From: Sphingomonas profundi
Lineage (GTDB): Bacteria; Pseudomonadota; Alphaproteobacteria; Sphingomonadales; Sphingomonadaceae
Assembly: GCF_009739515.1 (NCBI RefSeq)
Contig: NZ_CP046535.1
Coordinates: 2,852,001-2,916,000, forward strand
Direction of reading: 5' to 3'
Length of the DNA: 64,000 nucleotides
A program made the translations under genes and the position numbers. The stretch's first letter is position 1. The number at the start of each line of letters is the position of its first letter. Positions 20,454 to 61,297 of this stretch are shown one piece after another. The notes beneath the pieces are model-generated. The model was not told the origin of the DNA, did not search any database, and worked only from the letters and a program-made list of their open reading frames with translations.

Positions 20454-20530
20454 CGGGGAGTAGCTCAGCCTGGTAGAGCACTGTCTTCGGGAGGCAGGGG
20501 CCGGAGGTTCGAATCCTCTCTCCCCGACCA
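20454..20530 (+). tRNA. tRNA-Pro (anticodon CGG), prophage attachment target
   Basis: 77 nt with encoded CCA. Acceptor stem CGGGGAG / CTCCCCG, D arm GCTCAGCCTGGTAGAGC, anticodon stem CTGTC / GGCAG with loop TTCGGGA (anticodon CGG, reads CCG), T arm with TTCGAAT. All arms pair, so the gene is intact. An integrase gene begins 75 bp downstream, pointing toward the tRNA, the usual arrangement when a phage integrates in the tRNA 3' half and restores it. Confidence 0.96.
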
Positions 20531-20604: not shown

Positions 20605-21579
20605 TCACCAGTTGCCAGCGTTGGCCGCAGTCCGCAGGTATGCGGGGCTGAAGCGGGCATAGTGCTTCTCCGTCGTCCGGCTGTCGTCATGCCCCATAAG
20701 CTGGGCCAGTTCGGGCATTGAGATGCCATCCTCAGCCCGCCAGACACAGCCGGTATGGCGCAGCGTGTAGGGCGTTGCCTGGACAGCGCTCCTTTCGCTC
20801 GCCGCGGCGAACGCCTTCTTGATGCTTGCCACGGCCTTACCACCGCGCTCGATCACGAATTCCGATTGGCGCGCCTCGTAGGCGGCTTTCAGCGGAGCGA
20901 GAGCGTAATCGGCGATCGGCACGATCGGCCGGCGCTTCGCCGTTTGAATGCGCCCCCGCGGGTTGAGGTCGATGATGCCGCGATCAAAGTCGACGCGATC
21001 CCAGGTGAGCTGCAGGATTGCCATCGGCCGGGCGCATGTCGCGATCGCGAGCACCATGTAGAGTTGCGCATGAGGCGCCCGCACGGCAGCGAGAAATCGT
21101 CGGAACTGCTCGCGGGTCAGGTGCCGCTCCTTCCGTGCAGGCGGCGCGGGCCGCCAGATCGTCGGTGCCTCCTGGATCAGCTTCTTGCCTTTCGCCCAGC
21201 GCAGCGCGACGGCGAGCATGCCCAGCTCGTAGCGCATAGTCGCCGCCGACACGCCGCGGCGATCGGCGTAGGCTCGGCACATCTCCTCGTCGATCAGCCT
21301 GGGCGAGACGTCTTCCCAGAAGGTGCGCATCGCCTTCCACGCATCTGCCTGTCGCGTGACGGTGGCGATGCCCTCGCGCTCACGATCCTCGCGATAGGCC
21401 GCTATCAGCCGCCCCACGGGCCAGGAAGTACGGTCCCCAAGACGCCAGCGTTGCCGTGCTTCGGCTTCCGCCCCGACCCGATCGGCCGCGGCAAGGGTGT
21501 GCCGCCGGCGGGTCCCGGCGGCGTCTCGCCAGACGAGGGCGAAACCATCGCGGAACCGCTGGACGCTGTATTCAGACAT
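20605..21579 (-). CDS. int: Phage integrase, tyrosine recombinase
   Basis: 324 residues. The N-terminal SAM-like DNA-binding domain is followed by a catalytic domain with the first Arg in [18 protein letters not shown], the second Arg in TPYTLRHTG, His in [13 protein letters not shown] and the nucleophile Tyr in KHYARFSP, so all main catalytic positions are present; the usual His of the H-x-x-R motif is Tyr. It probably catalyses integration at the adjacent tRNA-Pro. It is the last gene of the minus-strand early operon and its start overlaps the excisionase-like gene by 175 bp in another frame. Confidence 0.93.
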
Positions 21580-34174: not shown

Positions 34175-34348
34175 ATGGCAACTCCGTCGCTGGTCGATCG
34201 GCTGCGTATCGCGCAGGAACGGCTCGACCTCATTATCCGCGATGCCGAGAACGATCGCCGACCGCATGCGCGCACCGAGCAGCTGCTCGACGACGTGCAT
34301 GACCTCGGCACGGTTATGTGCCGCATCGCGCGGGGCGGCAGCCGGTGA
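34175..34348 (+). CDS. Small phage protein of unknown function
   Basis: 57 residues, helical and charged (DRLRIAQERLDLIIRDAEND), with CTGGAGG ahead of ATG 34175. No family recognised. Stop overlaps the next start. Confidence 0.6.
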   Translation: MATPSLVDRLRIAQERLDLIIRDAENDRRPHARTEQLLDDVHDLGTVMCRIARGGSR

Positions 34349-34479
34349 TGGATGACGGTGTCCGCCTCTTCATCCGGTGCGTGCTCGTCCTAGTCATGCT
34401 CCTGCTCGCGAAGGATGAGCCGCTGGTGATCACCCCCGTCGAACAGGCGTTGCACTGGGTGCGGGAGCGTATCGCATGA
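34348..34479 (+). CDS. Very small membrane protein
   Basis: 43 residues: MDDGVRLFIRCVLVLVMLLL, then AKDEPLVITPVEQALHWVRE. One hydrophobic span lies near the N-terminus. It overlaps the preceding stop (TGATG) and the next start (ATGA), so it fills the gap exactly, which argues that it is translated. Function unknown. Confidence 0.6.
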   Translation: MDDGVRLFIRCVLVLVMLLLAKDEPLVITPVEQALHWVRERIA

Positions 34480-34766
34480 GGTCTGAGGCATTTGAGTTCC
34501 CGCTGGTGCGGGAGGAGATGAAGCGCCTGCCCGGCGGCCGCTGGATCGATCCCCGCGTGCTCGACGACGCGATCGGCGAGATCGCCGTGGCCGATCTCAA
34601 AGCTGCCGGTGCTCGTGGCCGGCGCGACCGGCTGGACGCCGAGATCGCGAGACACGAGCAGGATGGTGCGCGTGCCCGGGCGAGGGTCATGGCCCTCATC
34701 GAGACCGCCATCACGATCAGCCCGGCAGCGTCGCCCGCCGAAATGCGACGAACCGAGTTCGATTGA
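34476..34766 (+). CDS. Small phage protein of unknown function
   Basis: 96 residues, mostly charged helix (EIAVADLKAAGARGRRDRLD, AEIARHEQDGARARARVMAL) and probably coiled coil. Last gene before the presumed packaging region. No family recognised. The start overlaps the previous stop by ATGA. Confidence 0.65.
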   Translation: MRSEAFEFPLVREEMKRLPGGRWIDPRVLDDAIGEIAVADLKAAGARGRRDRLDAEIARHEQDGARARARVMALIETAITISPAASPAEMRRTEFD

Positions 34767-34800
34767 CCTCGACACCGGCCGCCGCCCCCGGTTGGCCGCC

Positions 34801-34829
34801 CCCGAACCGGCCATCCCCCCCGGTTCGGG
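34801..34829. repeat. Inverted repeat upstream of terminase (candidate cos-region element)
   Basis: CCCGAACCGG / CCGGTTCGGG, perfect 10-bp arms with a 9-nt C-rich spacer, inside the 146-bp gap before the terminase small subunit. A palindromic CGTATACG follows at 34847-34854. In lambda-like phages this gap holds cos; a terminator is the alternative. Confidence 0.5.
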
Positions 34830-34899
34830 TCCTTCCCGGCCAGTTTCGTATACGGGGCGCAAAGGCTCGAAGCGTTCCCAGCTATGGGTTCTGAAAGGG

Positions 34900-35143
34900 G
34901 TCCGCACCTGAAATGTCCGCACCCCTGAACCTGGTGTCTGTGCGCGAGTTCGCGCGGCTCGACGGGTGCGACGACAAGCTGGTGCGCCGGGCGATAACGG
35001 CCGGAAAACTGCGGGTTTCGGAAGATGGCAAGCTCGACGCGGCGCTGGTCGGATCGGGCTGGAGACGGACCAACCGCCGCGGCGCTGCGGGTGCGGACAT
35101 CGGTGCGGACACCGCGCAAATGTCCGCACCGAATGTCCGCACC
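34900..35143. repeat. Six GTCCGCACC repeats around the terminase small-subunit start (candidate packaging site)
   Basis: Exact 9-mers at 34900-34908, 34915-34923, 35122-35130 and 35135-35143 (direct) and 35090-35098 and 35102-35110 (inverted). A degenerate copy (GTCCGCAGT) is at 35163. The repeats occur in both orientations and in different reading frames of the gene they overlap, so they are not a protein repeat. Position and number fit terminase binding sites (cosB or pac). Confidence 0.75.
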
Positions 35144-35560
35144 CAGGCAGTGACGGCGCCGCTGTCCGCAGTGCTCCCGCCGCCGACTGCGATTGGCGAT
35201 CAGCCGGATCCGGAGGAGGTCGTCGACTTCATCGCGCAGGTGCTCGCCGGCCGCTTCGCGCTGACCGGCGTCGCCGAGCAGGTGAAGGAGAATGCGCTCG
35301 CCGCGAAGAACCTGCTGGCTGCGCGGAAGGAAGCGGGTGACCTCGTCGACATCGAGGTGGCCGAGGCGATCCTGTTCGAGCAGGCGCGCCAGTTCCGCGA
35401 CGCCTGGATGAACTGGCCGGCCCGGGTCGGGCCGCTCATCGCCGCCGAGCTGGGCGTAGCGCCGGAGCCGGTGGTGGAGGCGCTGAACAAGCATGTCCAG
35501 CAGCAGCTCCAGGATCTCGGAGAGCCGGAAGCGGAGTTCGCAGAAGCCGGCGAAGGATGA
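34913..35560 (+). CDS. Terminase small subunit (Nu1-like)
   Basis: 215 residues. N-terminal helix-turn-helix (LVSVREFARLDGCDDKLVRR, AITAGKL), as in lambda Nu1, which recognises the packaging site. A Gly/Arg/Ala/Thr-rich linker (about residues 50-90) coincides with the GTCCGCACC repeats. The C-terminal helices (VVDFIAQVLAGRFALTGVAE, EAILFEQARQFRDAWMNWPA) resemble the large-subunit interaction region of related proteins. The next gene overlaps by 68 bp and encodes the large subunit, a typical gene order. Confidence 0.85.
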   Translation: MSAPLNLVSVREFARLDGCDDKLVRRAITAGKLRVSEDGKLDAALVGSGWRRTNRRGAAGADIGADTAQMSAPNVRTQAVTAPLSAVLPPPTAIGDQPDPEEVVDFIAQVLAGRFALTGVAEQVKENALAAKNLLAARKEAGDLVDIEVAEAILFEQARQFRDAWMNWPARVGPLIAAELGVAPEPVVEALNKHVQQQLQDLGEPEAEFAEAGEG

Positions 35561-37607
35561 GCGGCTGCGGCGCGCCTGGCGCCGCGGCCTCACGCCTCCG
35601 CCCTGGATCAATCTGCCCGACTGGGCGGATCGCTACCGACGGCTCGCGAAGGAGGCGGGCTCCACCTCGGGGAAGTGGCGGACCTCGACCGTAGAGGTGG
35701 CGCGCGGGCCGATGCTCGCGGTGACCGAGCCGGGGGTGCACGTGCTCACCGCCATGGTGTGCACGCAGCTGCTCAAGACGGCGCTGCTCGAGACGATCGT
35801 CGGCTATCACGCGCACATCAAGCCGGTACCGATGCTGCTCGTGCAGCCGAAGGAAGCCGCCGCCGAGCAGTTCTCGAAGGAGCGCATCTCGCCCATGATC
35901 CGGGCGACGCCGGTGCTTCGGGACCTGATGGGCTCGCGCAAGAGCCGGTCGGCCGAGGAGACGCTGCTCTACAAGGGCTTTCCGGGCGGCTTCCTCGCCC
36001 TGGCTGGCGCCGGATCGCCCGACAACCTCGCCCGGCGGCCCGTCTGCATCACGATGTACGACGAGGTCGACAAATACGTCCTGACGCGCGAGGGCGACGC
36101 GATCGGGCTCGGCGACGAGCGCCAGGCCACCTTCTCGGAATATCTGTCGGTCCGGGTCTGCTCGCCGACGATCGAGGGCGAGAGCCGCATCGAGGCGAGC
36201 TACCTCGCCGGCGACCAGCGGCAGGCCTCGGTCGAGTGCCCGCACTGCCGCCACCGCAACTTCATCGACTTCTTCAGGCACGTCGAGTGGGACAAGGAGC
36301 TCGACGAGGCCGGCAACGTCATCGCGCACCACCCGCGCACGGCGAAGATCTACTGCGAGGCCTGCGGCGTCGGCTGGGACGAGGGTGCCCGACTGCAGGC
36401 GCTGAAGACGACGCGCTGGCACCAGACGAAGGCGTTCCTGTGCTGCGGCAAGCACCAGGATCCGCTCGCCGTCTTCGAGGAGACGTGGCGGCGGCAGGGT
36501 GACAGCCGGCCGGCCGATCCGGTGCTGCAGACGTGGGACTGGTGGGCCGGCCCGCGATGGGCGGTTTACCGCGCGCGATGTCAGCACTGCGGCAAGTGGC
36601 CGGTCGACAACGAGCATGCCAGCTTCACCGCCGGCAAGCTGTTCTCGCCGTGGCCGAAGGATGCGCCGCCGAAGCAGGCGACGAAGTGGCTCGACATGAA
36701 GGACGACCCGGATCAGCGGGTCGTGTTCGACAACACGCAGCGCGGCCGGCCGCACCGGCGCGCCACAGGCAAGGACCTGAAGGCGGAGACGCTGGCGGCG
36801 CGAGCCGAGACCTGGCCGGGCGAGGTTCCGGACGGGATCGGCCTGATCACCGTCGGCGGCGACACGCAGGACGATCGCGTCGAGCTCGAGTTCGTCGGCT
36901 GGGGCACGAACGAGGAGAGCTGGTCGCTCGGCTACGTCGTAATCGAGGGCGACACCTCGAGCTTCGAGCTCTGGGATCGCGTCGACGAGCAGCTGCTGCG
37001 CACCTTCCGCCGCGCCGACGGTCGCGCGTTCGCGGTCGAGGCGGCGTGCATCGATTCGGGCGGTCACCGCACCAACGAGGTCTATGCGTTCGCCAAGGCG
37101 CGCCTGGGCCGCAAGGTGTGGGCCATCAAGGGCGCGTCGGAGAAGAGCGGCCAGCGCGCGCCGATCTGGCCGACGGTGAAGCCGTCAACGCGCAAGCGGT
37201 CGCAGTACAAGCCGACCGTGATCGGGGTGAACGCGGCGAAGGACACGATCCGCGCCAGGCTGGAAGAGGTTCGCGAGCCCGGGCCCGGGTTCATGCACTT
37301 CCATGCGAAGCGCGAGCTGGCCTGGTACGAGCAGCTGATCGTCGAACGACGCATCCTGAAGGTGATGGCGGGCTCCCGCTTCACGGTGTGGGAATGCCCG
37401 AAGGGCAAGGCAAACGAGGCACTGGACTGCCGGGTCTATGCCTACGCGGCGCTGCAGGGCCTGATCCATTTCGGCCTGCGCCTGAACGAACGCACCGAGG
37501 AACTGGCGACGCGGTTCATCGCGATCGCGGCGCCCGAGATGGCGCCGGCCGCCGAGGATGCCTGGATCAGCCGGTCCGGCGCCGACGGCGGCGAGAGCTG
37601 GCTATGA
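35493..37607 (+). CDS. Terminase large subunit (GpA family)
   Basis: 704 residues of the lambda GpA type, the packaging motor ATPase and nuclease. Visible are PPPWINLPDWADRYRRLAKE, a Walker A-like TQLLKTALLE in which the usual Gly before Lys is Leu, LLVQPKEAAAEQFSKERI, Walker B ITMYDEVDKY, two Cys pairs (CPHCRHRN, CEACGVGW) and the nuclease-domain GGDTQDDRVELEFVGW. ATG 35493 lies inside the small-subunit gene. The later Asp-rich motifs suggest the nuclease is intact. Followed by gpW and portal genes. Confidence 0.93.
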   Translation: MSSSSSRISESRKRSSQKPAKDERLRRAWRRGLTPPPWINLPDWADRYRRLAKEAGSTSGKWRTSTVEVARGPMLAVTEPGVHVLTAMVCTQLLKTALLETIVGYHAHIKPVPMLLVQPKEAAAEQFSKERISPMIRATPVLRDLMGSRKSRSAEETLLYKGFPGGFLALAGAGSPDNLARRPVCITMYDEVDKYVLTREGDAIGLGDERQATFSEYLSVRVCSPTIEGESRIEASYLAGDQRQASVECPHCRHRNFIDFFRHVEWDKELDEAGNVIAHHPRTAKIYCEACGVGWDEGARLQALKTTRWHQTKAFLCCGKHQDPLAVFEETWRRQGDSRPADPVLQTWDWWAGPRWAVYRARCQHCGKWPVDNEHASFTAGKLFSPWPKDAPPKQATKWLDMKDDPDQRVVFDNTQRGRPHRRATGKDLKAETLAARAETWPGEVPDGIGLITVGGDTQDDRVELEFVGWGTNEESWSLGYVVIEGDTSSFELWDRVDEQLLRTFRRADGRAFAVEAACIDSGGHRTNEVYAFAKARLGRKVWAIKGASEKSGQRAPIWPTVKPSTRKRSQYKPTVIGVNAAKDTIRARLEEVREPGPGFMHFHAKRELAWYEQLIVERRILKVMAGSRFTVWECPKGKANEALDCRVYAYAALQGLIHFGLRLNERTEELATRFIAIAAPEMAPAAEDAWISRSGADGGESWL

Positions 37608-37617
37608 GGAGTTGCCG

Positions 37618-37812
37618 ATGGCGTTCACGAGCAACGACGTAGAGCAGCTGCGTGCCGCGATCGCGACGGGCGCGGTGAAAGTGCGCTACGCCGACCGCGA
37701 GGTGACCTATCGATCGCTCGGCGAGATGCGCGATATCCTGCGCATGATCCAGGCGGACATGCAGGGCGACGCGCTGAGCAACCGCTGCCGCACGTCCGTG
37801 GCGGCGTTCTGA
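37618..37812 (+). CDS. Head-tail joining protein (gpW family)
   Basis: 64 residues. Pattern FTSNDVEQLRAAIATGAVKV, YADREVTYRSLGEM and MRDILRMIQADM matches lambda gpW, which binds the portal after packaging and forms the platform for tail attachment. ATG 37618 with GAGG nearby is preferred to an earlier in-frame start inside the terminase gene. It lies in the lambda order A-W-B. Confidence 0.87.
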   Translation: MAFTSNDVEQLRAAIATGAVKVRYADREVTYRSLGEMRDILRMIQADMQGDALSNRCRTSVAAF

Positions 37813-37813
37813 G

Positions 37814-39364
37814 GTGACCTGGCTCGACCAGGCGATCGGCTGGGTGGCGCCCGTCGCCGGCGCGCGGCGTCTGGCTGCGCGGCGGCAGATGGACATGCAC
37901 GGCCGCGCCTACGAGGCGGCGCGTCGCGACCACCGCACCGCCAGCTGGCAGGCCGGCGGCACCGATGCCAATGCCGAGGCGGGCGCCAACGAGGAGATCG
38001 TCCGCAATCGCTCGCGCGACCTGGTGCGCAACAATGGCTGGGCGCTGCAGATCGTCGACACCTTCGCCGACCATGTCGTCGGCACCGGCATCGTCGGTGC
38101 GCCGACAGGGCTGAAGGGACGCAACGCGAAGAAGGTCTCCGGCGACTGGCGGAGCTGGGGCGAGGTCTGCGACCATGACGGCGACCATGACCTGAACGGG
38201 CTGCTCTGGTCGGCGACGAAGGGCATGGCGGAATCGGGCGCCGCCATCGTCCGCTTCCGCCGCCTGCAGTTCGACGCCAAGGTGACGACCGCGCCGCTGT
38301 CGCTGCAGGTGATGGAGCCCGACTTCCTCGATCCGCTGAAGAACGGCACGACGCGAAGCGGTGGCCTGATCGATCGCGGGATCGAATATGACGCCGGCGG
38401 CCGCAAGGTCGCCTACTGGCTTCTCCCGCACCATCCCGGCAACGTCGCCCAGTTCCGCGCCCGCACGCTCGTCAGCGATCGCGTACCGGCCGACGAGATC
38501 GTCTACCTCTACAACAAGCTGCGGCCCGGGCAGGACCGGGGAATGCCGCTGCTGGCGCCCGCGGTGATGACGCTGCGCGATCTGCGCGGCTATCTCGACG
38601 CCGAGCTCGTCCGCAAGCGCATCGCCTCGTGCATGGCCGGCTTCATCACCGACAAGGGCGACGGCGATCCGGTGACGCTCTCCGATCCGAAAACGGGCGA
38701 GGCGCTGAAGCGCAAATTCGGCAAGCTCGTCGACAAGTTCGAGCCGGGCATGATGACGCGCCTGTTTCCGGGCGAGGATGTCACCATGGCGACGCCGCCG
38801 AGCGCGCCCGGCATCGCCGAGGCGGCGCAATTCTACCTGCGTGAGGCCGCGGCGGCCGCCGGCGTGATGTACGAGCACGCCACCGGCGACTTCTCCGGCG
38901 TGAACTATTCGAGCTGGCGCGCCGGGCATCATGGCTTCCGCCGCCGGATGGAGCGGATCCAGTGGCTCGTCGTGGTGCACAAGCTCTGCCGCGTGATCGC
39001 GCAGCGCTACCGCGAGGCGTCCCTCGCCGCCGGCCTGCTGCCGGTCGCGAGCTTCGGCTGGCGCTGGACGCCGCCTGGCTTCATCTCAGTCGACCCCTAC
39101 AAGGATGCTCAGGCGGATCTCGCCAACCTGCGGATGGGCAAGGTGACGCTCAGCCAGCTCGTTGAGGAGCGCGGCTACGACTATCTCGAGTTCCTCGCCC
39201 AATATGCCGAGGATCTCGCGAATGCGGAGGCGGCGCTTGGGCCCGGCGTGATGTTCGACGGCGATCCGCGCAAGCTGGTCAACCCGCCGAAGCCGGAGAG
39301 CGGCGACGCGAAGAAGGCCGACGCGGCCGCCAACGACAGCGCTGACGCCGCCGACGCGGCCTGA
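37814..39364 (+). CDS. Portal protein (lambda gpB family)
   Basis: 516 residues from GTG 37814. The start (WLDQAIGWVAPVAGARRLAA), the motif VRNNGWALQIVDTFADHVVG, VMEPDFLDP, IEYDAGGRKVAYWLLPHHPG, the loop VPADEIVYLYNKLRPGQDRG and SGVNYSSWRAGHHGFRR are all typical. Portals form a dodecameric ring at one capsid vertex through which DNA is packaged. The C-terminal tail is rich in Ala/Asp/Lys. Next gene is the protease-capsid fusion. Confidence 0.94.
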   Translation: MTWLDQAIGWVAPVAGARRLAARRQMDMHGRAYEAARRDHRTASWQAGGTDANAEAGANEEIVRNRSRDLVRNNGWALQIVDTFADHVVGTGIVGAPTGLKGRNAKKVSGDWRSWGEVCDHDGDHDLNGLLWSATKGMAESGAAIVRFRRLQFDAKVTTAPLSLQVMEPDFLDPLKNGTTRSGGLIDRGIEYDAGGRKVAYWLLPHHPGNVAQFRARTLVSDRVPADEIVYLYNKLRPGQDRGMPLLAPAVMTLRDLRGYLDAELVRKRIASCMAGFITDKGDGDPVTLSDPKTGEALKRKFGKLVDKFEPGMMTRLFPGEDVTMATPPSAPGIAEAAQFYLREAAAAAGVMYEHATGDFSGVNYSSWRAGHHGFRRRMERIQWLVVVHKLCRVIAQRYREASLAAGLLPVASFGWRWTPPGFISVDPYKDAQADLANLRMGKVTLSQLVEERGYDYLEFLAQYAEDLANAEAALGPGVMFDGDPRKLVNPPKPESGDAKKADAAANDSADAADAA

Positions 39365-39377
39365 TCCGGAGACCATC

Positions 39378-41477
39378 ATGGACAAGAATCCGAAGGCGCC
39401 ACCGGCGCCGTCCACTCAGCGCATCCTAATCGTTACGAGCGCGAGCACCGGCACTGCAGCGGCGATCGTCGCCGCACGATTGCGCGACGCCATACCGATG
39501 ACACGCAGCGCGCCCAGCATCGACCCGGAGGAGCGCCGGCAGCCGCAGGCAGGTGGCCGCGGCGTGCGCAGCCTTGCTGTGGCGCCGGACAGCTACGACG
39601 CAACCGCACGCACGGTAGAGGCGGTTCTCTCTGCCGGTACTGCGGTACGCCGCTACTATTTCACTGAAGAGCTCGAGATCTCGGCGGACGCGATCGACCT
39701 CGCACGCGTGACTGGTGGCGTTTGCCCGCTGCTCGACACGCACAACCAATATCAGCTGGACGGCGTCATCGGCCGCATCCTCTCCGTCCGGATCGAGGGT
39801 GGCCAGCTGATCGGCGTGTTGCAGTTCGCGGACACCGAAGCCGGCCGCGCCATCGAGACGCGTGTCTCCGCCGGCGAGTTGCGCGCGATCTCGATCGGCT
39901 ACCGGGTCACCCGCTGGCAGATCACCGCTACCGACGACACCGATCACGAGACCTGGCGCGCCGTCGCCTGGGAGTTGCTTGAGGCCAGTCTCGTCCCCGT
40001 TCCCGCCGATCCGAACGCCGTGGTTCGATCCGCACCGGGCACCCCCGCACACGGCAGCCAAGAGGAAGATGATATGCGACGCAACCTCCCCACCGGCGCG
40101 GCTGCGGCCGCTCCTGCCATCGCCAGCGTTTCCACCCCGGTCGACAATGCCCGCACCGTTGAGGTCGTCGCTGACGTGATCGCGCCTGTCGTGATCGAAC
40201 AGCGGCAGGTGCCCGCAGCCGTGACGGTTGCGGCGATCCGCACCGCGGCACGCAACGCCGGCCTGACCGACGACGCCACGTTCGAGCTGATCGAGCGCCA
40301 CGAAGCGACGCCGCTGACGCGCGACGCGCTGATGGCCGACATCGGCCGCCGCTTCGCCGAGCGCGACAGCCAGGCGCCGACGACCAGCCGCGTGACCGTG
40401 ACGCGCGACGCCGGCGACACCATGCGCCGCGGCATGGAAGAGTATCTGTTCCACCGCATGTCGCCGCGCTCGGAACTGGCCGACGTTGGTCGGGCCTATC
40501 GTGGCATGTCGCTGCTGCGCATGGCCGAGGAGCATCTGGCGGCCGGCGGCGTCAGCGTCCGCGGCCTCACCCCCAACGAGATCGCGGAGCGCGCGCTGCA
40601 CAGCACGAGCGACTTCTCGAACCTCGTCGGCAACGGCCTCAACCGCCGCCTGCGCGCCGCCTATGACGAGAACCAGCCGAGCTATCGCTCCTGGGCGCGT
40701 CGCGCGCCAAACGCGCCGGACTTCCGCTCGGTCGACGTCATCCAGATGTCGGCGATGCCGGACCTGGTGAGGGTCAACGAGGCCGGCGAGTTCCGCTACG
40801 GCACCGCGAGCGACGGCAAGGTCAGCTACGCGGTCGTGACCTACGGCCGCATCATCGCCGTGACCCGCCAGCTCATCATCAACGACGATCTGCGCGCGCT
40901 CGAGCGGATCACGACCGGCTTCGCCGGCTCGGCCGCCCGTCTCGAGAACCGGACGGTCTATGCGCAGATCACGTCCAACCCGACGATGCCCGACGGCAAG
41001 GCGCTGTTCCACGCCGACCACGGCAATCTCGGCTCGGGCGCGATCTCGGCGACGTCGCTGGCCGCCATGCGCAAGGACATGCGTCTGCAGAAGGGGCTCC
41101 AGTCGGAGGAGCTGAACCTGATGCCGGAGCATCTGCTGGCGCCGGCGACGCAGGAGCAGCTGGCCTACCAGTTCACCTCGAGCCAGTTCGTGCCCGCCAA
41201 GGCGACCGACGTGAACGAGTTTCGCGCCGGTGGCCGCACCGCGCTCGACCCGATCGTCGAGGCCATCCTGGACGGCAACTCCACCACCGCCTGGTATGGC
41301 GTGGCGTCGAACGCCCAGGTCGATACGGTCGAGTACGCCTATCTCGAGGGCTCCGAGGGCGTGCAGATGTCCAGCCGCATGGGCTTCACCGTCGACGGCG
41401 TCGAGATGAAGGCGAGCCTCGATTTCGCGGCGGCCGTCATCGATCACCGCGGCCTCTGGAAGTCGACCGGCGCCTGA
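39378..41477 (+). CDS. Prohead protease / major capsid fusion protein
   Basis: 699 residues. The N-terminal third is a prohead protease (VCPLLDTHNQYQLDGVIGRI with the likely catalytic His; SAGELRAISIGYRVTRWQ with the likely Ser), ending ELLEASLVPVPADPNAV. A linker with an internal Met (residue 233) leads to a scaffold-like helical region and a HK97-type capsid domain (NGLNRRLRAAYDENQPSYRS, GRIIAVTRQLIINDDLRALE, RTALDPIVEAILDG). Such fusions exist in several siphoviruses and remove the N-terminal part by self-cleavage. An AGAGGA lies 8 nt before the internal ATG at 40074, so a separate capsid/scaffold product may also be made. Confidence 0.9.
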   Translation: MDKNPKAPPAPSTQRILIVTSASTGTAAAIVAARLRDAIPMTRSAPSIDPEERRQPQAGGRGVRSLAVAPDSYDATARTVEAVLSAGTAVRRYYFTEELEISADAIDLARVTGGVCPLLDTHNQYQLDGVIGRILSVRIEGGQLIGVLQFADTEAGRAIETRVSAGELRAISIGYRVTRWQITATDDTDHETWRAVAWELLEASLVPVPADPNAVVRSAPGTPAHGSQEEDDMRRNLPTGAAAAAPAIASVSTPVDNARTVEVVADVIAPVVIEQRQVPAAVTVAAIRTAARNAGLTDDATFELIERHEATPLTRDALMADIGRRFAERDSQAPTTSRVTVTRDAGDTMRRGMEEYLFHRMSPRSELADVGRAYRGMSLLRMAEEHLAAGGVSVRGLTPNEIAERALHSTSDFSNLVGNGLNRRLRAAYDENQPSYRSWARRAPNAPDFRSVDVIQMSAMPDLVRVNEAGEFRYGTASDGKVSYAVVTYGRIIAVTRQLIINDDLRALERITTGFAGSAARLENRTVYAQITSNPTMPDGKALFHADHGNLGSGAISATSLAAMRKDMRLQKGLQSEELNLMPEHLLAPATQEQLAYQFTSSQFVPAKATDVNEFRAGGRTALDPIVEAILDGNSTTAWYGVASNAQVDTVEYAYLEGSEGVQMSSRMGFTVDGVEMKASLDFAAAVIDHRGLWKSTGA

Positions 41478-41560
41478 TCGCCGGCGCTTCGCCACCCACC
41501 GCAATCTGACGACGCGCCGGCGGTAAGCCGCCTGCGCGTCGTCGCTTCTGGAGACAGACC

Positions 41561-41902
41561 ATGGCCAAGAACTATCGCCACAAGGGCGACACCTGCACCT
41601 TCACCGCCCCCAATGCCGTCGCTTCCGGCGGCGGCTTCCAGGTCGGTTCGCTGTTCGCCGTCGCCCAGTGCGATGCCGCCCAGGGCGCCCCGGTCGAGGG
41701 CGACGTCGTCGGCGTCTGGACGCTGCCGAAGAGCACCGCCGCCGGCACCGACTTCACCGCCGGCACCAAGCTCTACTGGGACAATGCGGCGAAGCTCGTC
41801 ACCAAGACGGCGTCGACCAACCTGTTCATCGGCGCCGCCCTGGGCGACGCGGCCGCGGGCGACGCCACCTGCGCTGTCCGCCTGAACGGCGTCGCCGCCT
41901 GA
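41561..41902 (+). CDS. Capsid decoration/stabilising protein (DUF2190 family)
   Basis: 113 residues. The pattern YRHKGDTCTFTAPNAVASGG, FAVAQCDAAQGAPVEG, GVWTLPKSTA, TKLYWDNAAKLVTKT and FIGAALGDAAAGDATCAVRL is the DUF2190 signature; members coat the capsid surface as in lambda gpD-like proteins. CTGGAGA precedes the ATG. It directly follows the capsid gene. Confidence 0.88.
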   Translation: MAKNYRHKGDTCTFTAPNAVASGGGFQVGSLFAVAQCDAAQGAPVEGDVVGVWTLPKSTAAGTDFTAGTKLYWDNAAKLVTKTASTNLFIGAALGDAAAGDATCAVRLNGVAA

Positions 41903-41967
41903 TACACCAACAACGGCCGGCGATCGCGGCGCAGCTGCTGTCGCCGGCCGCATCCGAGGAGGGCATC

Positions 41968-42132
41968 ATGCCGAACGTCCAACTGCACGGCCCGGCGCTC
42001 GACAAGAACGGCCTCTATGTCGACGCCGGCGCGATCCTCGCCGTCGGCGATGCGCCCGAGGCCGATATCTCGATCGAGGAAGCCACCGTGCTCGTCGAGG
42101 ATCTGCGCGCGGTCGAGGTGGACGAGGCCTGA
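41968..42132 (+). CDS. Small head protein of unknown function
   Basis: 54 residues: VQLHGPALDKNGLYVDAG, then an acidic tail rich in Glu/Val. An excellent AGGAGG stands 6 nt before the ATG, and the stop overlaps the next gene (TGATG). No family recognised; the position suggests a head-tail role. Confidence 0.65.
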   Translation: MPNVQLHGPALDKNGLYVDAGAILAVGDAPEADISIEEATVLVEDLRAVEVDEA

Positions 42133-42434
42133 TGGCCGACCCGTTCGCCGCCGGCCTGGCCGCGATCGACGCGGTGTTCCGCGAGGCCGTCGTCTATACC
42201 GGCGCCGGCCTCGACGCCGCGCCGATCCGGGCGATCTACGCCGACGAGGCGGCGCAGCCGTTCGTCGGCGGCGGCAGCACGCTGCGGCAGGTGAGCTTCG
42301 AGCTCGACCAGGCCGACCTGCCGGAGCGACCGCGCAAGGGCAACATGATCGTCCGGGCCGGCGTCACCTGGAAGGTGGACGACGTAACCGACCGTGACGA
42401 CATCGGCCGCTACGTCGTCGTGGTGAAGCGGTGA
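42132..42434 (+). CDS. Head-tail connector protein
   Basis: 100 residues. The beta-rich pattern (VVYTGAGLDAAPIRAIYADE, RQVSFELDQADLPERPRKGN, GVTWKVDDVTDRDDIGRYVV) matches head-tail joining proteins of the lambda FII/gp-like connector class. It overlaps both neighbours and lies between the decoration and tail terminator genes, as expected. Confidence 0.72.
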   Translation: MADPFAAGLAAIDAVFREAVVYTGAGLDAAPIRAIYADEAAQPFVGGGSTLRQVSFELDQADLPERPRKGNMIVRAGVTWKVDDVTDRDDIGRYVVVVKR

Positions 42435-42868
42435 CCGCCGCCCGCTCGCAGATCCTCGCCGCGATCGTCGCGCGCCTGGCCGGCGTGTCTGGCATGAGCG
42501 CCGATCGCGTCGAGCTGATGCCGTCGGGCGACCCCGACGCGTTCCCCGCGCTCGGCGTGCACGATCACGGCCAGCGCAACGTCGACGGCGAGGCCGGCAG
42601 CACCACTTACGAGCTGCAGGTGACGGTCGACGGCTTCGTCGAGGGCGACGGCGCGCGCGAAGCGATCGGCGAGCTCTACGTTGGCGTCGTCGCGGCGCTG
42701 GTGACGGAGCCGCCGCTGGACGAGCTCGCCGGCGGCGTCAGCCTGATCGACGAGGGCGACACCCGCGTCGACGTCGCCGAGCTCGCCTCCACCGGTCGCA
42801 TCGCCTTCGCCACCGATTTCGCGATCCAGTTCGCGACCCCTCGCGGCGATCCGTCGCGCTTCGCCTGA
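42431..42868 (+). CDS. Tail terminator-like protein (gpU position)
   Basis: 145 residues from GTG 42431 (GTGA overlap). MTAARSQILAAIVARLAGVS, then a beta-rich core (TTYELQVTVDGFVEGDGARE, AIGELYVGVVAALVTEP) and VDVAELASTGRIAFATDFAI. Size, fold pattern and position between the connector and tail tube genes match tail terminators, which cap the tail and join it to the head. Confidence 0.72.
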   Translation: MTAARSQILAAIVARLAGVSGMSADRVELMPSGDPDAFPALGVHDHGQRNVDGEAGSTTYELQVTVDGFVEGDGAREAIGELYVGVVAALVTEPPLDELAGGVSLIDEGDTRVDVAELASTGRIAFATDFAIQFATPRGDPSRFA

Positions 42869-42883
42869 TCTGAGGAGATCGAC

Positions 42884-44116
42884 ATGTCCGACCCGATTAT
42901 CCGCACCAGCAATGTTGCGGTGCTGCTCAAGCTCGAGGCCACCGAGAGCGTCGACGCTCTGCCTGGCGTCACCGATGCGGTGAACGTCGAGGCGAACTCG
43001 GTGCAGACGAGCGCGCCGTTCACCGCCGAGGCGTCGAGCGAGGCGACCGGCTCGCTCGTCGGCGGCGCGCCGCTGGTGATCGGCCAGCCGGCGACGATCC
43101 GTTTCCGCTCGCAGATCAAGGGCGCCGGTGCCGGCGTGACCTACAGCCCCACCGTGAAGCCGCCGCTGCACCAGGCGCTGCAGGCCTGCGGCAAGCGCGG
43201 CCAGTTCACCGCCGCCAAGGTGACGTCGCTCTGCAGCGCGGGCTCCGCTACGTCGGCGACGCTGAACGCGGCCCATGCGGCGACGGCCGAGGCCTATCGC
43301 GGCATGCGGCTGATCATCACGGCCGGCGCGGGGGCGGGCAGCACCGCCCTGGTGAGCTCGTACAGCGCCGGCCGCGTCGCGCTGCTGACCAAGACGTTCC
43401 TGACGCCGCTGGATGCCTCCACCAGCGTCGCGATCAACGACAACTGGACCTATTCGGGCACCAGCCCCTTGGATCTCACCGCCCGGCTGACCGATCAGCC
43501 GTCCGCGACGATCTACGTCTATCGCGACGGCAAGCTGCGCAAGTTCGTCGCCTGCCGCGGCACTGTGGACTATAGCGGCAACACGGCACGCGCGGGCTTC
43601 GCCGACTTCTCGTTCACCGGCATCTACGTGGGCGATGCCGACGCGGCGGTGCCCTCCGGCCTCGTGCTGCCGAGCCACTCGGCGCCTATCCTGGCTCAGT
43701 CGACCGCCCTCGACGCCGTCGTGCTGCTCAACCGCCTGCCGATGCCGATCAGCCAGTGGTCGCTGGAGAATGGCGGCACGCTCGAGACGCCGGACGATCC
43801 GAACACGAACAACGGTTTCGGCGCGAGCGTCATCACCGACCGCATCCCGCTGCTGAAGATGGACCCGCTGGCGACGCTGATTGCGTACCGCAACTCGATC
43901 GCGGACATCCAGGGCGGCACGCTGATGAACGCCTCGCTCTCGTGCGGCATCAGCGCCGGCAATCGCTGGGCGCTGACCCTGCCGCGGGTGCAGAAGACGG
44001 TGGCCGAGGATGGCGAGCGCGGCAAGCTGCAGTCCGAGCAGATCACCGCGCAGGCGCGCAGCCTCTCCGTCGACGCCTACGGGCGCGACGGCGACAGCAT
44101 CCTGATGTTCGACTGA
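42884..44116 (+). CDS. Major tail tube protein
   Basis: 410 residues. Repeated beta segments (SDPIIRTSNVAVLLKLEATE, NVEANSVQTSAPFTAEASSE, ATIRFRSQIKGAG, DNWTYSGTSPLDLTARLTDQ) are typical of large siphovirus tail tube proteins with an inserted Ig-like region. The strong GAGGAG and its position before the chaperone pair support this. It is longer than lambda gpV, suggesting extra surface domains. Confidence 0.78.
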   Translation: MSDPIIRTSNVAVLLKLEATESVDALPGVTDAVNVEANSVQTSAPFTAEASSEATGSLVGGAPLVIGQPATIRFRSQIKGAGAGVTYSPTVKPPLHQALQACGKRGQFTAAKVTSLCSAGSATSATLNAAHAATAEAYRGMRLIITAGAGAGSTALVSSYSAGRVALLTKTFLTPLDASTSVAINDNWTYSGTSPLDLTARLTDQPSATIYVYRDGKLRKFVACRGTVDYSGNTARAGFADFSFTGIYVGDADAAVPSGLVLPSHSAPILAQSTALDAVVLLNRLPMPISQWSLENGGTLETPDDPNTNNGFGASVITDRIPLLKMDPLATLIAYRNSIADIQGGTLMNASLSCGISAGNRWALTLPRVQKTVAEDGERGKLQSEQITAQARSLSVDAYGRDGDSILMFD

Positions 44117-44126
44117 GGGAACCCGC

Positions 44127-44699
44127 ATGATCGCGATGTCGACGAGCCAGCCGATCCGCTGGACCCCGCCCTGGCGCGAGCAGGAGGAGCCGAAGCCGGT
44201 CTACCTGCTGCGCGCGCCTTCCGTCACCGAGCGCGAGATCCTGGAGGGCGAGCTCTCCGGCGAGCATCGCGCCGGCATCGTCTACGGCTTCCAGCTTCGT
44301 GCGGCGTTCGCCGCCGGCATCGACTCGTTGATCGGCGAGACGGCACCGGACGACGCGGCGCGGCTGAAGGAGCTGTCCGCCCAGCAGGCGGCGCTGAAGG
44401 ACGGCGAGAGCCTGGCCGATGACGAGATCGCGCTGCTCGAGGCGGCCGAGGCGGTGCTGATCGAGCATTATCCGGCCTACCGCAGCCTCATCGCCCAGCA
44501 GCAGCGCCGCGAGGCGCTGGCGCCGATCGTCGCGTTCCAGAAGTGGTGCGTCGGGGTGGAGAACCTGGACGTGCCGTTTGCCCGCGACTGGTCCGGCGTG
44601 AAGCCGGAGGCGATGGCGGCGATCGATCCGCTGGAGCTGCGCGTCGCCGGCCGCACCGCCTACAATCTCGCCTACGCGGGCCAGCATCTGGGAAACTGA
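44127..44699 (+). CDS. Tail assembly chaperone (G-like, zero-frame product)
   Basis: 190 residues, acidic and helical (SVTEREILEGELSGEHRAGI, EIALLEAAEAVLIEHYPAYR), ending AYAGQHLGN. By position, between tail tube and tape measure, it corresponds to lambda gpG, which helps tail assembly. Its last two sense codons form the slippery site G GGA AAC, directly followed by the stop. GAGGGAA precedes ATG 44127. Confidence 0.82.
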   Translation: MIAMSTSQPIRWTPPWREQEEPKPVYLLRAPSVTEREILEGELSGEHRAGIVYGFQLRAAFAAGIDSLIGETAPDDAARLKELSAQQAALKDGESLADDEIALLEAAEAVLIEHYPAYRSLIAQQQRREALAPIVAFQKWCVGVENLDVPFARDWSGVKPEAMAAIDPLELRVAGRTAYNLAYAGQHLGN

Positions 44700-44980
44700 G
44701 AGGCGCGCTCGTCTGCCGGCAGCACCCCGCCGACTTCGAGTATAGCGCCGAGGAAAGCGGGGGCTGGGACATCGCCGGGTGCATCTGGGAGCAGAACCCG
44801 CTCCTGGCGATCCCGCGCGGCATCTTTTCGGTCGTGGATCTCTGGCTCAGCTGCCGTGCCCACGGCGGGCCAATGGGCGGCCGGGCGCTCCCCTGCGCTG
44901 GCGGCCCGGCCGACCAGCCGGCGGCGCTGATGGACGCCTTCATGCTGCTCGAGGCCTGGGTGAACCCGAAGGAGGCCTGA
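44127..44980 (+). CDS. Tail assembly chaperone GT-like fusion made by -1 frameshift
   Basis: If ribosomes slip back one base at 44690-44696, reading continues as LRGALVCRQHPADFEYSAEE in the -1 frame to a stop at 44978-44980, giving a 284-residue product with a 94-residue T-like extension. That extension (WDIAGCIWEQNPLLAIPRGI, AALMDAFMLLEAWVNPKEA) has no own start codon or Shine-Dalgarno, so the frameshift is the natural way to express it. This mirrors lambda G and G-T, where a fixed ratio of the two proteins is required for tail assembly. The next gene begins in the stop (TGATG). Confidence 0.8.
44690..44696 (+). other. -1 ribosomal frameshift site (slippery heptamer GGGAAAC)
   Basis: The heptamer G GGA AAC is in the correct register (codons GGA AAC) with the zero-frame TGA immediately after. 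X XXY YYZ sites of this form, such as lambda's GGGAAAG, allow two tRNAs to re-pair one base back. Confidence 0.85.
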
Positions 44981-45636
44981 TGCCGAACCCCTTCGATGCG
45001 CTCACGATCGACTTCGCCAAGCTCGGCGCGGATCGCTCGCGGCTCGAGAAGGCGATCCTGGAGGCGGAGCGGGCGGCGGTCACCGACGTCGGCAAGCAGG
45101 CCGAACGGGCGCTGGAAGCGGCGACGGCGGCCGGCGGCCTCGGGCGGCTGGCCAAGGCCTGGAACAGCAAGGTCTATCCGCAGAAGGGCCTCGCGGCCGG
45201 GCCGGCGACGCTGCTCTACCCCAAGGGCGGCGACCGCACCAAGGGCGCGATTCGCGGCCAGGTGGAGGGCGGGCGCATCGGCGCGCGCGGGGGCGGGACG
45301 ATTGCGGTGCCGACCAAGGCGGCGGCGCTCGGCGTGCGCAAGACGCGGCCGACGCCGGAGGAGTGGGAAGCGGCAACGGGGATCAAGCTGATCCCGGTGC
45401 AGCGCCCGGGCAAGCCGACGCTGCTGATCGCGACAGGCGCGCGCGTGCTCAAGTCCGGCCGGATCCGCGCCGCCAGCGCGTCGGCGATCAACCGTGGCCG
45501 GTTCGCGTCGGCCGTGATCTTCGTCCTGGTGCCCTACGTCAGCCTGCGCTCGCGCTTCTCGGTCGAGGGCACGCTGGCGCCGTTCGCCGGCAGGGTCGCC
45601 GAGGATTTCGCCAGGCGCGCAGGCGCGATCAGCTAG
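44980..45636 (+). CDS. Tail protein of unknown function (possibly DUF6441-like)
   Basis: 218 residues. N-terminal helices (DRSRLEKAILEAERAAVTDV, GKQAERALEAATAAGGLGRL) and a basic, Gly-rich middle (RTKGAIRGQVEGGRIGARGG) that includes beta strands. Its position between the chaperones and tape measure, and the general pattern, recall DUF6441 proteins, but I cannot confirm this. Start overlaps the previous stop (TGATG). Confidence 0.7.
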   Translation: MPNPFDALTIDFAKLGADRSRLEKAILEAERAAVTDVGKQAERALEAATAAGGLGRLAKAWNSKVYPQKGLAAGPATLLYPKGGDRTKGAIRGQVEGGRIGARGGGTIAVPTKAAALGVRKTRPTPEEWEAATGIKLIPVQRPGKPTLLIATGARVLKSGRIRAASASAINRGRFASAVIFVLVPYVSLRSRFSVEGTLAPFAGRVAEDFARRAGAIS

Positions 45637-45644
45637 GAGGGATC

Positions 45645-48557
45645 ATGCCGAACGTCGACATCGTCGCCCGGCTGAAGCTCGCCGGCGAGCAGTTTTCCGC
45701 AGAGTTCGGCCAGCGGATGGACCGGATCGAGACCGAGGCGCGATCGGCCGCGTCACGTGTGAACACCGCGCTTGGCGGCATCGGCAACACGCTGGCGGGC
45801 TTTGCCGCCGGGATTGGAATTGCCGGGATCGCCGAAGCCGGCAAGGCGGTTCTCGACTATGCCGATGATCTCGGCACCGCCGCCGATCAGGCCGGAGTCG
45901 CCGTCGAGCGCTACCAGACGCTGAAGGAGGGTCTGCGCTCCCTCGAGATCCCGACTGAAAAAACCGACAAGGTTCTGAAGGGATTGAACGACACGCTAGG
46001 AGCCGTTCAGTCGGGGACCGAGAATGGGGCGACCAAGGCACTCGACCGTCTCGGTATTACTGCAGATATCCTCGCAGGAAAGATCAGCGATCCCGCGCAG
46101 CTGCTGGATGCTCTCGCCGCGGCGTCAAAGGGGGCCGGTTCGGAGGCGCAGTATGCGAGCGACCTGGTCGACATATTCGGGAAGAAGATCGGCGTCGATC
46201 TTGCGGCGGCGCTAAAGGACGGCGGAGCCGCGCTGCACGACGCCGAGCAGGCCTTTCGCGACACCGGATCGGTGATCACCTCCGAGATGATCGACAAGCT
46301 GGCGGATGCCAACGAGACAATCGACGCGTTCGTGTCGCGATCACGCAATCAGTTCGTGATCTTCGCAGCCAACGGGATCAGCGCCTTCGAGAGCGTCGAG
46401 CTGCGACTGGCGAAGCTTGGACGAGCGCTGGCCAACTTCTCGCCAATCGGCAACCCGTCATCGTACGAGGCGGAGATCCGCGATATCGAGCGGCGCACGG
46501 CAACGAAAAGCGCTTATGACGCGCAGCGGGCGCGTACGGTCGCGGCGCTCCAGGAGAAAGATCGAATCGCAGCAGGAGACGGTGTCTTCAAGAATACGGC
46601 GCTGCCGCAGGCAGTGAATACGTACAAGAGGGAGCTCGCCGAACTCCGCCGGATCGCCAAAGATTTTAACGCGAACAGGGCTGCCGCCGGTGTCGACGAC
46701 GGCGCCGGCGCCGTGATCAAGCCAGCCGAGACCGCCAGGACGGAGACCAACCTCCGCAAGGTGCAGGCGGCCGCCAAGGAAGCGAGTTCTTCTCTCAACT
46801 TCGTGCCGCCGATCCTGAAGGACATCGCGATCCAGTCGGACGCCGCCGGCGAAGCCGCCCGCAGGTTCTACGACTCTGTTGGCGTTGATCCGTTCGATTT
46901 CAGCAAGAAGATCGCGGCCAACGACGCGGAATGGAAGAAGTCGTTCGACGCTCAGCAAGAGGCGATGGAAGAGAGCTGGCGCCGCCAGGAAGACAATGTC
47001 CGCAGCCTCGCGGACTTCTACGCTGACGCGTTCGAAGGCGGTTCGGGCTCTATCTGGAAGAGCTTCAAGCGCCAGGGCCTGGCGGTGATCAGCGAGATTG
47101 CGGCGCGCTACACGCTGGCGCTGCTGTCGGGCAAGAGCACGGACTTCGGATCGATCCTGTCGTCGGCGCAAGGCACGGGCTCCCCGCTGGGCAGCATCCT
47201 TGGCCTGCTCAACAGCGGCGGCGGCGTCACGAAGGGTGGCACCACGATCCCCACCACCGGGACCGTCATCTCGGAAGCCGGCGCGGTGCCGGGGGCGACC
47301 AGCGGCGGCGGCATCCTCGGCAAGATCGGCATCTCGTCCGGCACCGCGTCGTCGATCGGGCAGGCCGCAGGCGCGTTCGGCGCGGCGATCGCCGTGAACC
47401 AGATCGTGGGTGACGTTTTCGGCTTCAAGGGCGGGCCGCTGGGGATCCTCACCGGCCTGTTCACGAAGACGAAGAAGGCGGCGGCGACCTTCGGCACCAC
47501 CGCCGACGGGTTCGGCGTGACCGGCGTTACCGGCAATTCGGCCAAGTTCAAGGCCGCCGCCAGCAGCGCCGGCGACAACGTCTCGTCGATCCTGCAGAAC
47601 ATCGCGGATCAGCTGGGCGGAACCCTCACCGGCCCGGCCTCCGGCTCGATCGGCGTGCGCCACGGCGACTTCCGCTACGATCCCTCCGGCCGTGGCATCA
47701 CGAAGAAGGCCAAGGGCGCAATCGACTTCGACGACGATCAGGAAGCCGCGATCAAATATGCCGTCAGCGACCTGCTGAAGGACGGGCTGCTGCAGGGCGT
47801 CAGCGAGGCCAGCAAGCGGCTGCTGACGAACGGCGGCGACCTCGACGCGCAGTTGCAGAAGGCAGTGACGCTGGAGAGCATCCCCAAGCTGCTGAAGGCC
47901 CGGCTCGATCCGGTCGGCGCGGCTGTGGACACGGTGACGGAGAAGTTCGCCGGCATGGTCAAGATCCTCGACGAGAGCGGCGCCTCGGCCGAGCACCGCG
48001 CCGACGCGGAGAAGCTCTACCGGCTCGAGCTCGAGGATGCGCGCAAGAGCGCCGGCGACGCGGCCGAGAGCCTCAAGGCGTTCCTCGACGGCATGAAGAC
48101 GGGCAGCGATTCGCCGTATTCGCTGCGCGACCAGGAGACGGCGGCGCGCGCCGCGCTCGATCCGTATCTCGCCGACATCAACGCCGGCGTCTCGATCGAC
48201 CAGCAGAAGTATCTCGCCGCCGCACAGTCCTTCCTCGACGTCGAGCGCGAGCTCTACGGCTCGACCCAGGCCTATTTCGACGCGCTGAACACGGTGCAGG
48301 CGGCGACCGGCAAGGCGATCGCCACGATCGGCAATGCCACGCCGATTACCGGCGCCGCCGCGGTCGATCCGTTCGCGAAAGCGACCGCGGCGGCGGCCGA
48401 GAAGACGGCGACCGCGACGTCGACGGCGACCGACCTGCTCGACCAGATGAGCGGCCAGCTGGGCGACCTGCCGGCGATCCGCACCGCGCTGGAGGCGATC
48501 GTCGCCCGCGGCGGCACGGCGCTGAGCGGCCTCGGCGCTGCGCGAGGCTATGTCTGA
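45645..48557 (+). CDS. Tail tape measure protein
   Basis: 970 residues. ATG 45645 with AGGAGG directly upstream. Long coiled-coil stretches (LAGEQFSAEFGQRMDRIETE, ELAELRRIAKDFNANRAAAG), Gly/Ala-rich membrane-like segments (NTLAGFAAGIGIAGIAEAGK, SSIGQAAGAFGAAIAVNQIV) and a Ser/Gly-rich region. The tape measure sets tail length and is ejected with DNA. A longer upstream frame overlapping the previous gene is not credible. Its length predicts a moderately long tail. Confidence 0.92.
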   Translation: MPNVDIVARLKLAGEQFSAEFGQRMDRIETEARSAASRVNTALGGIGNTLAGFAAGIGIAGIAEAGKAVLDYADDLGTAADQAGVAVERYQTLKEGLRSLEIPTEKTDKVLKGLNDTLGAVQSGTENGATKALDRLGITADILAGKISDPAQLLDALAAASKGAGSEAQYASDLVDIFGKKIGVDLAAALKDGGAALHDAEQAFRDTGSVITSEMIDKLADANETIDAFVSRSRNQFVIFAANGISAFESVELRLAKLGRALANFSPIGNPSSYEAEIRDIERRTATKSAYDAQRARTVAALQEKDRIAAGDGVFKNTALPQAVNTYKRELAELRRIAKDFNANRAAAGVDDGAGAVIKPAETARTETNLRKVQAAAKEASSSLNFVPPILKDIAIQSDAAGEAARRFYDSVGVDPFDFSKKIAANDAEWKKSFDAQQEAMEESWRRQEDNVRSLADFYADAFEGGSGSIWKSFKRQGLAVISEIAARYTLALLSGKSTDFGSILSSAQGTGSPLGSILGLLNSGGGVTKGGTTIPTTGTVISEAGAVPGATSGGGILGKIGISSGTASSIGQAAGAFGAAIAVNQIVGDVFGFKGGPLGILTGLFTKTKKAAATFGTTADGFGVTGVTGNSAKFKAAASSAGDNVSSILQNIADQLGGTLTGPASGSIGVRHGDFRYDPSGRGITKKAKGAIDFDDDQEAAIKYAVSDLLKDGLLQGVSEASKRLLTNGGDLDAQLQKAVTLESIPKLLKARLDPVGAAVDTVTEKFAGMVKILDESGASAEHRADAEKLYRLELEDARKSAGDAAESLKAFLDGMKTGSDSPYSLRDQETAARAALDPYLADINAGVSIDQQKYLAAAQSFLDVERELYGSTQAYFDALNTVQAATGKAIATIGNATPITGAAAVDPFAKATAAAAEKTATATSTATDLLDQMSGQLGDLPAIRTALEAIVARGGTALSGLGAARGYV

Positions 48558-48919
48558 TGCCGTTCGATCCCGCCCTCGACGCCGCCGGCCTGCGCGACCA
48601 GGTGGTCGCCACCTGGTCGAACACCGCGATCCGCTCACGCTACCCCTCGGCGCGTGACGCGATCGCGGCGCCCGCCGAGGGCTTCTTCGACGCGATCGGC
48701 GATGCCCAGGCGGTGATCGACGCGCGGGCGAGCCTGCTCGGCGTCGAGCGACGGCGCTTCGTCGTCGTGGTGCAGGACGTGCTCTGGCTCGATCCCTCGC
48801 TTGGCACGCCGACCGTGACGCTGGCGGACAGCGAGCAGGCGGCGGGCGGCACCTTCATCGTCACCGGGGTCGAGGTCGATCTCGACGCCGGTACGACCTC
48901 CCTCGAGCTGTTCGGGTAG
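48557..48919 (+). CDS. Minor tail protein
   Basis: 120 residues. Pattern AIRSRYPSARDAIAAPAEGF, RFVVVVQDVLWLDPSLGTPT and TFIVTGVEVDLDAGTTSLEL is beta-rich and sits after the tape measure where distal-tail components are encoded. Start overlaps the stop (TGATG). Specific role unknown. Confidence 0.7.
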   Translation: MPFDPALDAAGLRDQVVATWSNTAIRSRYPSARDAIAAPAEGFFDAIGDAQAVIDARASLLGVERRRFVVVVQDVLWLDPSLGTPTVTLADSEQAAGGTFIVTGVEVDLDAGTTSLELFG

Positions 48920-48923
48920 AGCC

Positions 48924-61059: not shown

Positions 61060-61297
61060 CGACCCATGCTCCTTACCTGACAGAGCGTACGAACGAGTGG
61101 TTACTAAAAAGCAACCATCAATCTGAGCCTGCAAGGAACTGAACTGAACACGTCCGCTGGTCGCGAGACCAGCGGGGGTTGCCGTGCGCCAACACGGCAA
61201 GCCGACGGAGAGTGATCCGTCACGCGCGGCTGGCTATGCCGCAAACGCCCCGCACCCGTTTCGAAGCGGGCGGGGCTCCCATGGACCTGCAATCGTT

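Follow-up and report, generated by a model that had tools for sequence, protein, structure and literature searches.

Terminase locus and repeats

The stretch of DNA analysed here (64,000 nucleotides of Sphingomonas profundi, contig NZ_CP046535.1, positions 2,852,001 to 2,916,000; in the following, the window) carries a prophage, whose terminase genes are accompanied by a cluster of short repeats, GTCCGCACC. The cluster begins just before terS, the gene for the terminase small subunit (TerS), and extends into it; terL, encoding the large subunit (TerL), comes next, and 3' of terL are found a lambda-family portal gene and then a fused protease-capsid gene. The repeats are very probably binding sites for TerS in a cohesive-end (cos) site of the lambda type, as judged from the following features and their counterparts in related phages.

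34827..34834, + strand: cosQ, GGGTCCTT (GGGTCCTTCC conserved), identical to lambda
34855..34866, + strand: predicted cosN overhang GGGCGCAAAGGC, about 12 nt, 5' (length 11–13)
34900..34908, + strand: predicted TerS-binding site 1 (cluster I), bp 46 from the predicted left end
34913..35560, + strand: terS, terminase small subunit, 215 amino acids (PHROG 57, phrog_57, E 4e-18)
34914..34923, + strand: predicted TerS-binding site 2, overlapping the terS start codon
34973..34999, + strand: codons of the predicted recognition helix, residues 21–29 (DKLVRRAIT)
35090..35099, − strand: predicted TerS-binding site 3, inverted (cluster II), bp 236
35096..35203, + strand: codons of a predicted disordered linker, residues 62–97
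35102..35111, − strand: predicted TerS-binding site 4, inverted, bp 248
35121..35130, + strand: predicted TerS-binding site 5
35134..35143, + strand: predicted TerS-binding site 6
35163..35172, + strand: predicted TerS-binding site 7, degenerate, TGTCCGCAGT
35493..37607, + strand: terL, terminase large subunit, gpA (lambda) family (PF05876, E 1e-59; PF20454, E 9e-71)

A sequence-only reading of this DNA had described six exact 9-mers in 244 bp, four direct and two inverted, and one degenerate copy at 35163. All were located precisely as claimed, with starts at 34900, 34915, 35122 and 35135 on the + strand and at 35090 and 35102 on the − strand; the degenerate copy (TGTCCGCAgt) was counted as the seventh site. 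The repeat core is TGTCCGCAC(C), and five of the six exact copies read TGTCCGCACC. Outside the cluster the window contains a single exact copy, at 1834, to the left of the integrase gene and tRNA-Pro, which brings the total to seven, where 1.46 are expected; seven copies were reached in none of 100 dinucleotide shuffles. The probability of at least six copies in a single 244-bp span is about 3e-17, uncorrected for approximately 262 such spans. Counting in the complete genome (4.54 Mb) yielded 160 copies, or about 1 per 28 kb, compared to 92 for the reversed control word. Thus, the word is common genome-wide, and its clustering, not its presence, is the signal.

The sites form two groups. Cluster I (34900–34923, two sites, bp 46–69 from the predicted left end) surrounds the start of terS, and cluster II (35090–35172, five sites, two inverted and three direct, bp 236–318) lies in terS codons 60–87; about 165 bp, which encode the helix-turn-helix of TerS, separate them. 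The occurrence of copies on both strands and in different frames, as stated in the sequence-only reading, was confirmed (the coding + strand copies occupy two reading frames, and both inverted copies one frame), but not all copies are within coding sequence, since the copy at 34900 precedes terS and the second copy overlaps the start codon at 34913.

Structure prediction for TerS

An AlphaFold2 model of TerS contained a confident helix-turn-helix, with residues 21–29 as its second helix (predicted local distance difference test, pLDDT, ~92), although the overall predicted template modelling score was only 0.39. The C-terminal part was modelled as helical. Cluster II is encoded mostly inside the predicted disordered linker (pLDDT < 50 at residues 62–85 and 90–97). 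No Pfam family matched TerS, and a Foldseek search with the model gave no match at E < 0.001. The DNA-binding domain was similar to the viral packaging motor entries 7lxs, 7lw0 and 7lwr (Z 4.9–5.2); MerR, BldC and Xis domains scored equally.

Cohesive ends of relatives and predicted position of the nick

The virion ends of two relatives have been sequenced. In Rhodobacter phage RcKemmy, 11-base 5' overhangs were read by sequencing (PMC8601537); in Serratia phage BZS1, a 12-base end was obtained with PhageTerm and confirmed by comparing a PCR product from the prophage with the virion ends (PMC7556043). The TerS of RcKemmy is a relative of that of the window, and when aligned, its joined ends are collinear with the element found here. 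Repeats of GTTTCCAC begin at virion bp 47 of RcKemmy, though terS is 2 kb distant, and repeats of GGTAACA at bp 48 of BZS1; the first repeat of the window is at bp 46. In both phages the homologous conserved element is the cohesive end itself, and the virion ends are close to the repeats.

Alignment of 18 relatives upstream of cluster I showed that GGGTCC and GGG are invariant and that an AGCTAT block is conserved. The RcKemmy and BZS1 cuts lie 23 nt before CTAGC, and since the corresponding CCAGC of the window starts its match at 34878, the top-strand nick is predicted at 34854/34855 (TATACG^GGGCG; TTACG^GGGCG in lambda, record NC_001416). The distance from cosQ to the nick would then be 28 bp, compared to 30 in lambda and 31 in BZS1. 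These data support the cos-type packaging site which the sequence-only reading had proposed alongside a pac site; the cosQ and cosN elements at 34827–34866, just upstream of the repeats, had gone unnoticed there.

A pac-type site for headful packaging inside terS, in the manner of P22 or SPP1 and with no defined cohesive end, appears very unlikely. The pac site of P22-like phages is situated within terS, and most of the repeats are likewise inside the gene; but a cosQ and a nick context identical to those of lambda, and a TerL of the gpA family, speak against it, and unique cohesive ends of 11 and 12 bases were sequenced at the homologous position in the two relatives.

Position of the sites relative to cosQ and terS

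Relatives of TerS were detected in viral contigs and in the genomes searched (Sphingobium, Sphingomonas, Novosphingobium, Roseomonas, Caballeronia), and the searches also yielded several hundred more viral loci with some redundancy. In 84 loci, numbered here with the letter L or named by phage, both cosQ and sites were found automatically. The distance from cosQ to the first site was 72–78 nt in 82 of them, with any motif and any location of terS; one of the two exceptions (RcSwan) was due to a wrong word. In L225–L230 the sites are beside cosQ and terS is 1.4–2.2 kb off; in the phages of the RcC group (RcKemmy, RcSwan) terS is up to 2.3 kb off. In L078–L094 all sites are between cosQ and terS, and there is no overlap with the helix-turn-helix region. 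Thus, the sites follow cos and not the gene, since they remain at cosQ when terS is 1.4–2.3 kb away or downstream.

The same loci speak against the sites being operators through which a transcription regulator, perhaps TerS, would govern the late operon. The position of site 1 just upstream of the terS start, the overlap of site 2 with it and the MerR/BldC-like fold of the DNA-binding domain would fit such a function; sites next to cosQ/cosN with a distant terS (L225–L230 and RcC phages), or entirely between cosQ and terS and clear of the helix-turn-helix region (L078–L094), would not, and we consider this explanation even less probable than a pac site. The sites may have a secondary autoregulatory effect.

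The layout varies inside one family: some of the GGTAACA or TGTCCCA relatives (L191–L198, L327–L340) have all their sites between cosQ and terS, roughly 190–10 bp upstream of terS, and in their near kin the sites straddle the code for the helix-turn-helix.

Covariation of repeat and recognition helix

Nearly all close relatives have kept the word of the window in its two-group layout. L013, L027 and L029 carry GTTGCCAC instead, with layout and orientation unchanged. Of 113 loci, about 100 were shown by an automatic word search to have a clustered 7-mer of their own. The words differed by group (TGTCCGCA, TGTTCGCA, GTTGCCA, GTTTCCA, GGTAACA, GGTTGCA and others), and the commonest spacing between neighbouring sites was 12 bp. 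RcKemmy and RcSwan were missed by the automatic motif search (2.5-kb span, GC-rich words); for these two, sites were identified by visual inspection of the virion end and added manually.

With the motif written as GT-X3-X4-X5-CA, three residues of the predicted recognition helix covaried with the central bases in a set of 69 loci, with no exceptions. Threonine or methionine at residue 22 occurred with X3 = T, other residues with C (once G); histidine at residue 21 occurred with X5 = C, and aspartate or glutamate with G; arginine at residue 25 occurred with X4 = C. Independent pairs on a tree built from the TerS C-terminus alone agreed in 7 of 7 (p 0.016), 5 of 5 (p 0.06) and 6 of 6 (p 0.03) cases, or 18 of 18 in total.

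The rule was written down before new loci were fetched. Among these held-out loci, the predicted word ranked first of 64 in five of the six covered by the code, and also in L292. Of those obtained later, L415 and L416 were fully correct, L428 was correct but had just two copies, and the predictions for L419 and L449 were correct at X3 and X5, their residue 25 being unlisted (A, D). No held-out locus with a detectable cluster violated the rule for residue 21 or that for residue 25, and the rule for residue 22 was good for K and T. The rule for alanine and glycine at residue 22 was dropped after failures in the held-out loci. As K22 loci account for most successes, the hold-out lends support to the rule but is not a strong test.

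Repeats at the protein level (SAP, VRT and GAD peptides) or a random low-complexity expansion can practically be dismissed: five of the seven sites are in a linker where such repeats could drift, but the copies are in two + strand frames, inverted and also non-coding, and the encoded peptide varies by motif class, whereas the DNA motif tracks the helix.

Two loci whose TerS has the helix SDTLVHQ, L105 (576–1067) and L309 (1233–1736), did not contain the predicted GTTTGCA as such; L105 has three CTTTGCA, one base off, and L309 shows traces only. In TerS of this type the first motif base may be set by residue 26 (Q). Pairs of helix and motif outside the code were TEGAVRK with GTACGCA (eight copies, L441), APSAVEK with GGTGGAC (six copies, L446) and SHTAVDK with GTTGCCA (eleven copies, L449).

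Proposed function of the sites

The repeats would accordingly be named R-type sites, together forming a cosB. The helix-turn-helix of TerS is proposed to bind them and thereby to hold the gpA-type TerL over cosN, approximately 46 bp away; TerL would nick cosN in a staggered fashion, and packaging would run rightwards from the left end. Residues 21, 22 and 25 of TerS would read X5, X3 and X4, respectively. Aspartate or glutamate at residue 21 would specify G, and histidine C, at X5; lysine or arginine at residue 22 would specify C, and threonine or methionine T, at X3; arginine at residue 25 would specify C, histidine or serine T, and glutamine G, at X4. If this is true, the N-terminal domain of TerS is expected to prefer TGTCCGCACC over TGTTCGCACC.

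Several results weigh against this proposal. The residue classes were chosen after the data had been seen. In L434 (SDAAVRK, GTTCGCA) and L441 (TEGAVRK, GTACGCA) X4 and X5 were right, but X3 was T and A, respectively, and not the predicted C; A and G at residue 22 therefore do not fix X3. L439 and L309 were without a clear predicted cluster, and Caballeronia L034, which shares the window helix DDKLVRR, lacks cosQ and shows no more than two weak copies. The nick position was transferred by alignment, with a possible error of 1–2 nt and an overhang of 11–13 nt. TerS had no sequence match in the PDB, and similarity of its DNA-binding domain to Nu1 (1j9i) was weak (VIA Z 4.0, 13% identity). Of the Nu1-like helix-turn-helix claimed in the sequence-only reading, the helix-turn-helix itself stands, being modelled with high confidence and resembling the DNA-binding domains of phage terminases; the likeness to Nu1 is weak by structure and not detectable by sequence.

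Comparison with known packaging systems

Lambda (gpNu1/gpA) and the window share the order cosQ, cosN, TerS sites, the sequences GGGTCCTT and TACG^GGGCG, a gpA-family TerL and a TerS with a helix-turn-helix; the first site is at bp 46 in the window and R3 of lambda at bp 50–65. In an alignment made by eye, residue 25 of the window TerS corresponds to residue 20 of lambda, which is one of the two residues genetically known to set the specificity of lambda and phage 21. In contrast to lambda, which has three sites of 16 bp, the window has seven of about 10 bp with different sequences; cluster II is inside terS beyond the helix-turn-helix codons, and terS starts at bp 59, compared to bp 191 in lambda. 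The complex cosB of lambda (three R sites, with an integration host factor, IHF, site between R3 and R2) was not matched, the window having no strong IHF consensus (best 7 of 9).

The simple cosB of N15 also has no IHF site, and R3 is upstream of terS, at bp 48–60. Its inverted rR2 is inside terS at bp 249–260, about 200 bp past R3; the inverted copies of the window are at bp 236 and 248. N15 differs by a single site per place (two and five sites in the window), by its sequence and by the dispensability of rR2. RcKemmy, RcSwan and BZS1 share with the window a related TerS or TerL and equal spacing of cosQ, cosN and sites, and their cohesive ends were sequenced; they have their own motifs (GTTTCCAC, GGTAACA) and helices, and terS of the RcC phages is 2 kb from cos. 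The available portions of the reports on these phages do not describe the repeats. Phage-inducible chromosomal islands (PICI) of coliphages possess cos-rpp modules, in which cosQ and cosN likewise precede a gene whose product is a small DNA-binding packaging protein; this gene is rpp instead of terS, and there are no repeated R sites. A terS-less copy of the window cos was not detected with a strict pattern of cosQ and sites in 299 family genomes; the sole match, L259, encodes terS.

By the features tested, the window cos is of the lambda/N15 type, save for the tripartite R-IHF-R-R layout of lambda. New are the multi-site arrangement in two groups around the helix-turn-helix code and the covariation series; a literature search limited to open papers found no earlier description of either.

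Probable exchange of a specificity block

By the TerS C-terminus, L027, L051 and L029 are closest to the window, yet their helix and motif differ from those of the window, with the layout unchanged. The helix is DDKLVRR in the window and SHTLVGK in L027; a further natural variant, SDTLVRR, is present in L067. Identity to L027 was 78% in cosQ-cosN, approximately 40–65% between site 1 and the linker end, and 83–95% from 35233 onwards (rest of terS, into terL). This drop delimits a further feature:

34900..35215, + strand: candidate exchangeable specificity block (sites, helix-turn-helix and linker code)

Thus, a single block of about 310 bp that comprises the sites, the DNA-binding domain and the linker is divergent and its flanks are conserved, a pattern which joint exchange would produce. 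It appears moderately probable to us that Nu1-like TerS proteins share a readable code, in which the central bases are determined by a few residues of the helix, and that in many of these phages this block is swapped like the target-recognition domain of a type I restriction enzyme; packaging specificity would then be predictable and would have changed repeatedly in nature.

Genetic knowledge of how a terminase chooses the genome of its own phage is confined to very few cases (lambda, 21, N15). The natural series of more than 100 phages, with one motif per TerS helix, repeated co-changes and one clear block exchange, indicates that packaging specificity could be partly predictable from sequence. 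With such a series, it should be possible to find the cos ends of prophages without having to sequence virions, and it supplies directly testable pairs of single residues and single bases. The code would also predict which co-resident prophages can package each other, and two prophages with identical sites are present here.

Prophage surroundings and the second prophage

20605–21579: tyrosine integrase gene, beside tRNA-Pro (20454–20530)

No attachment (att) repeat of at least 14 nt was shared by tRNA-Pro and the right part of the window. Two further genes are situated close to the right end: a DNA methyltransferase gene (61184–62104) and a second tyrosine-integrase gene (62546–63766). The prophage may therefore have a second mobile element as its neighbour.

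The second prophage of this genome is located at about 2053000–2090000 (G000:C1; L260, L261). Its identity is 97.7% to window positions 34343–44982 and 95% to 47465–53090. Since its cosQ, cosN and seven sites are identical to those of the window, the two prophages could package each other's DNA. Between 45000 and 47465, in the region of a gene with a tape-measure family match (45363–48557), the window diverges from the second prophage, with short matches of 85% only.
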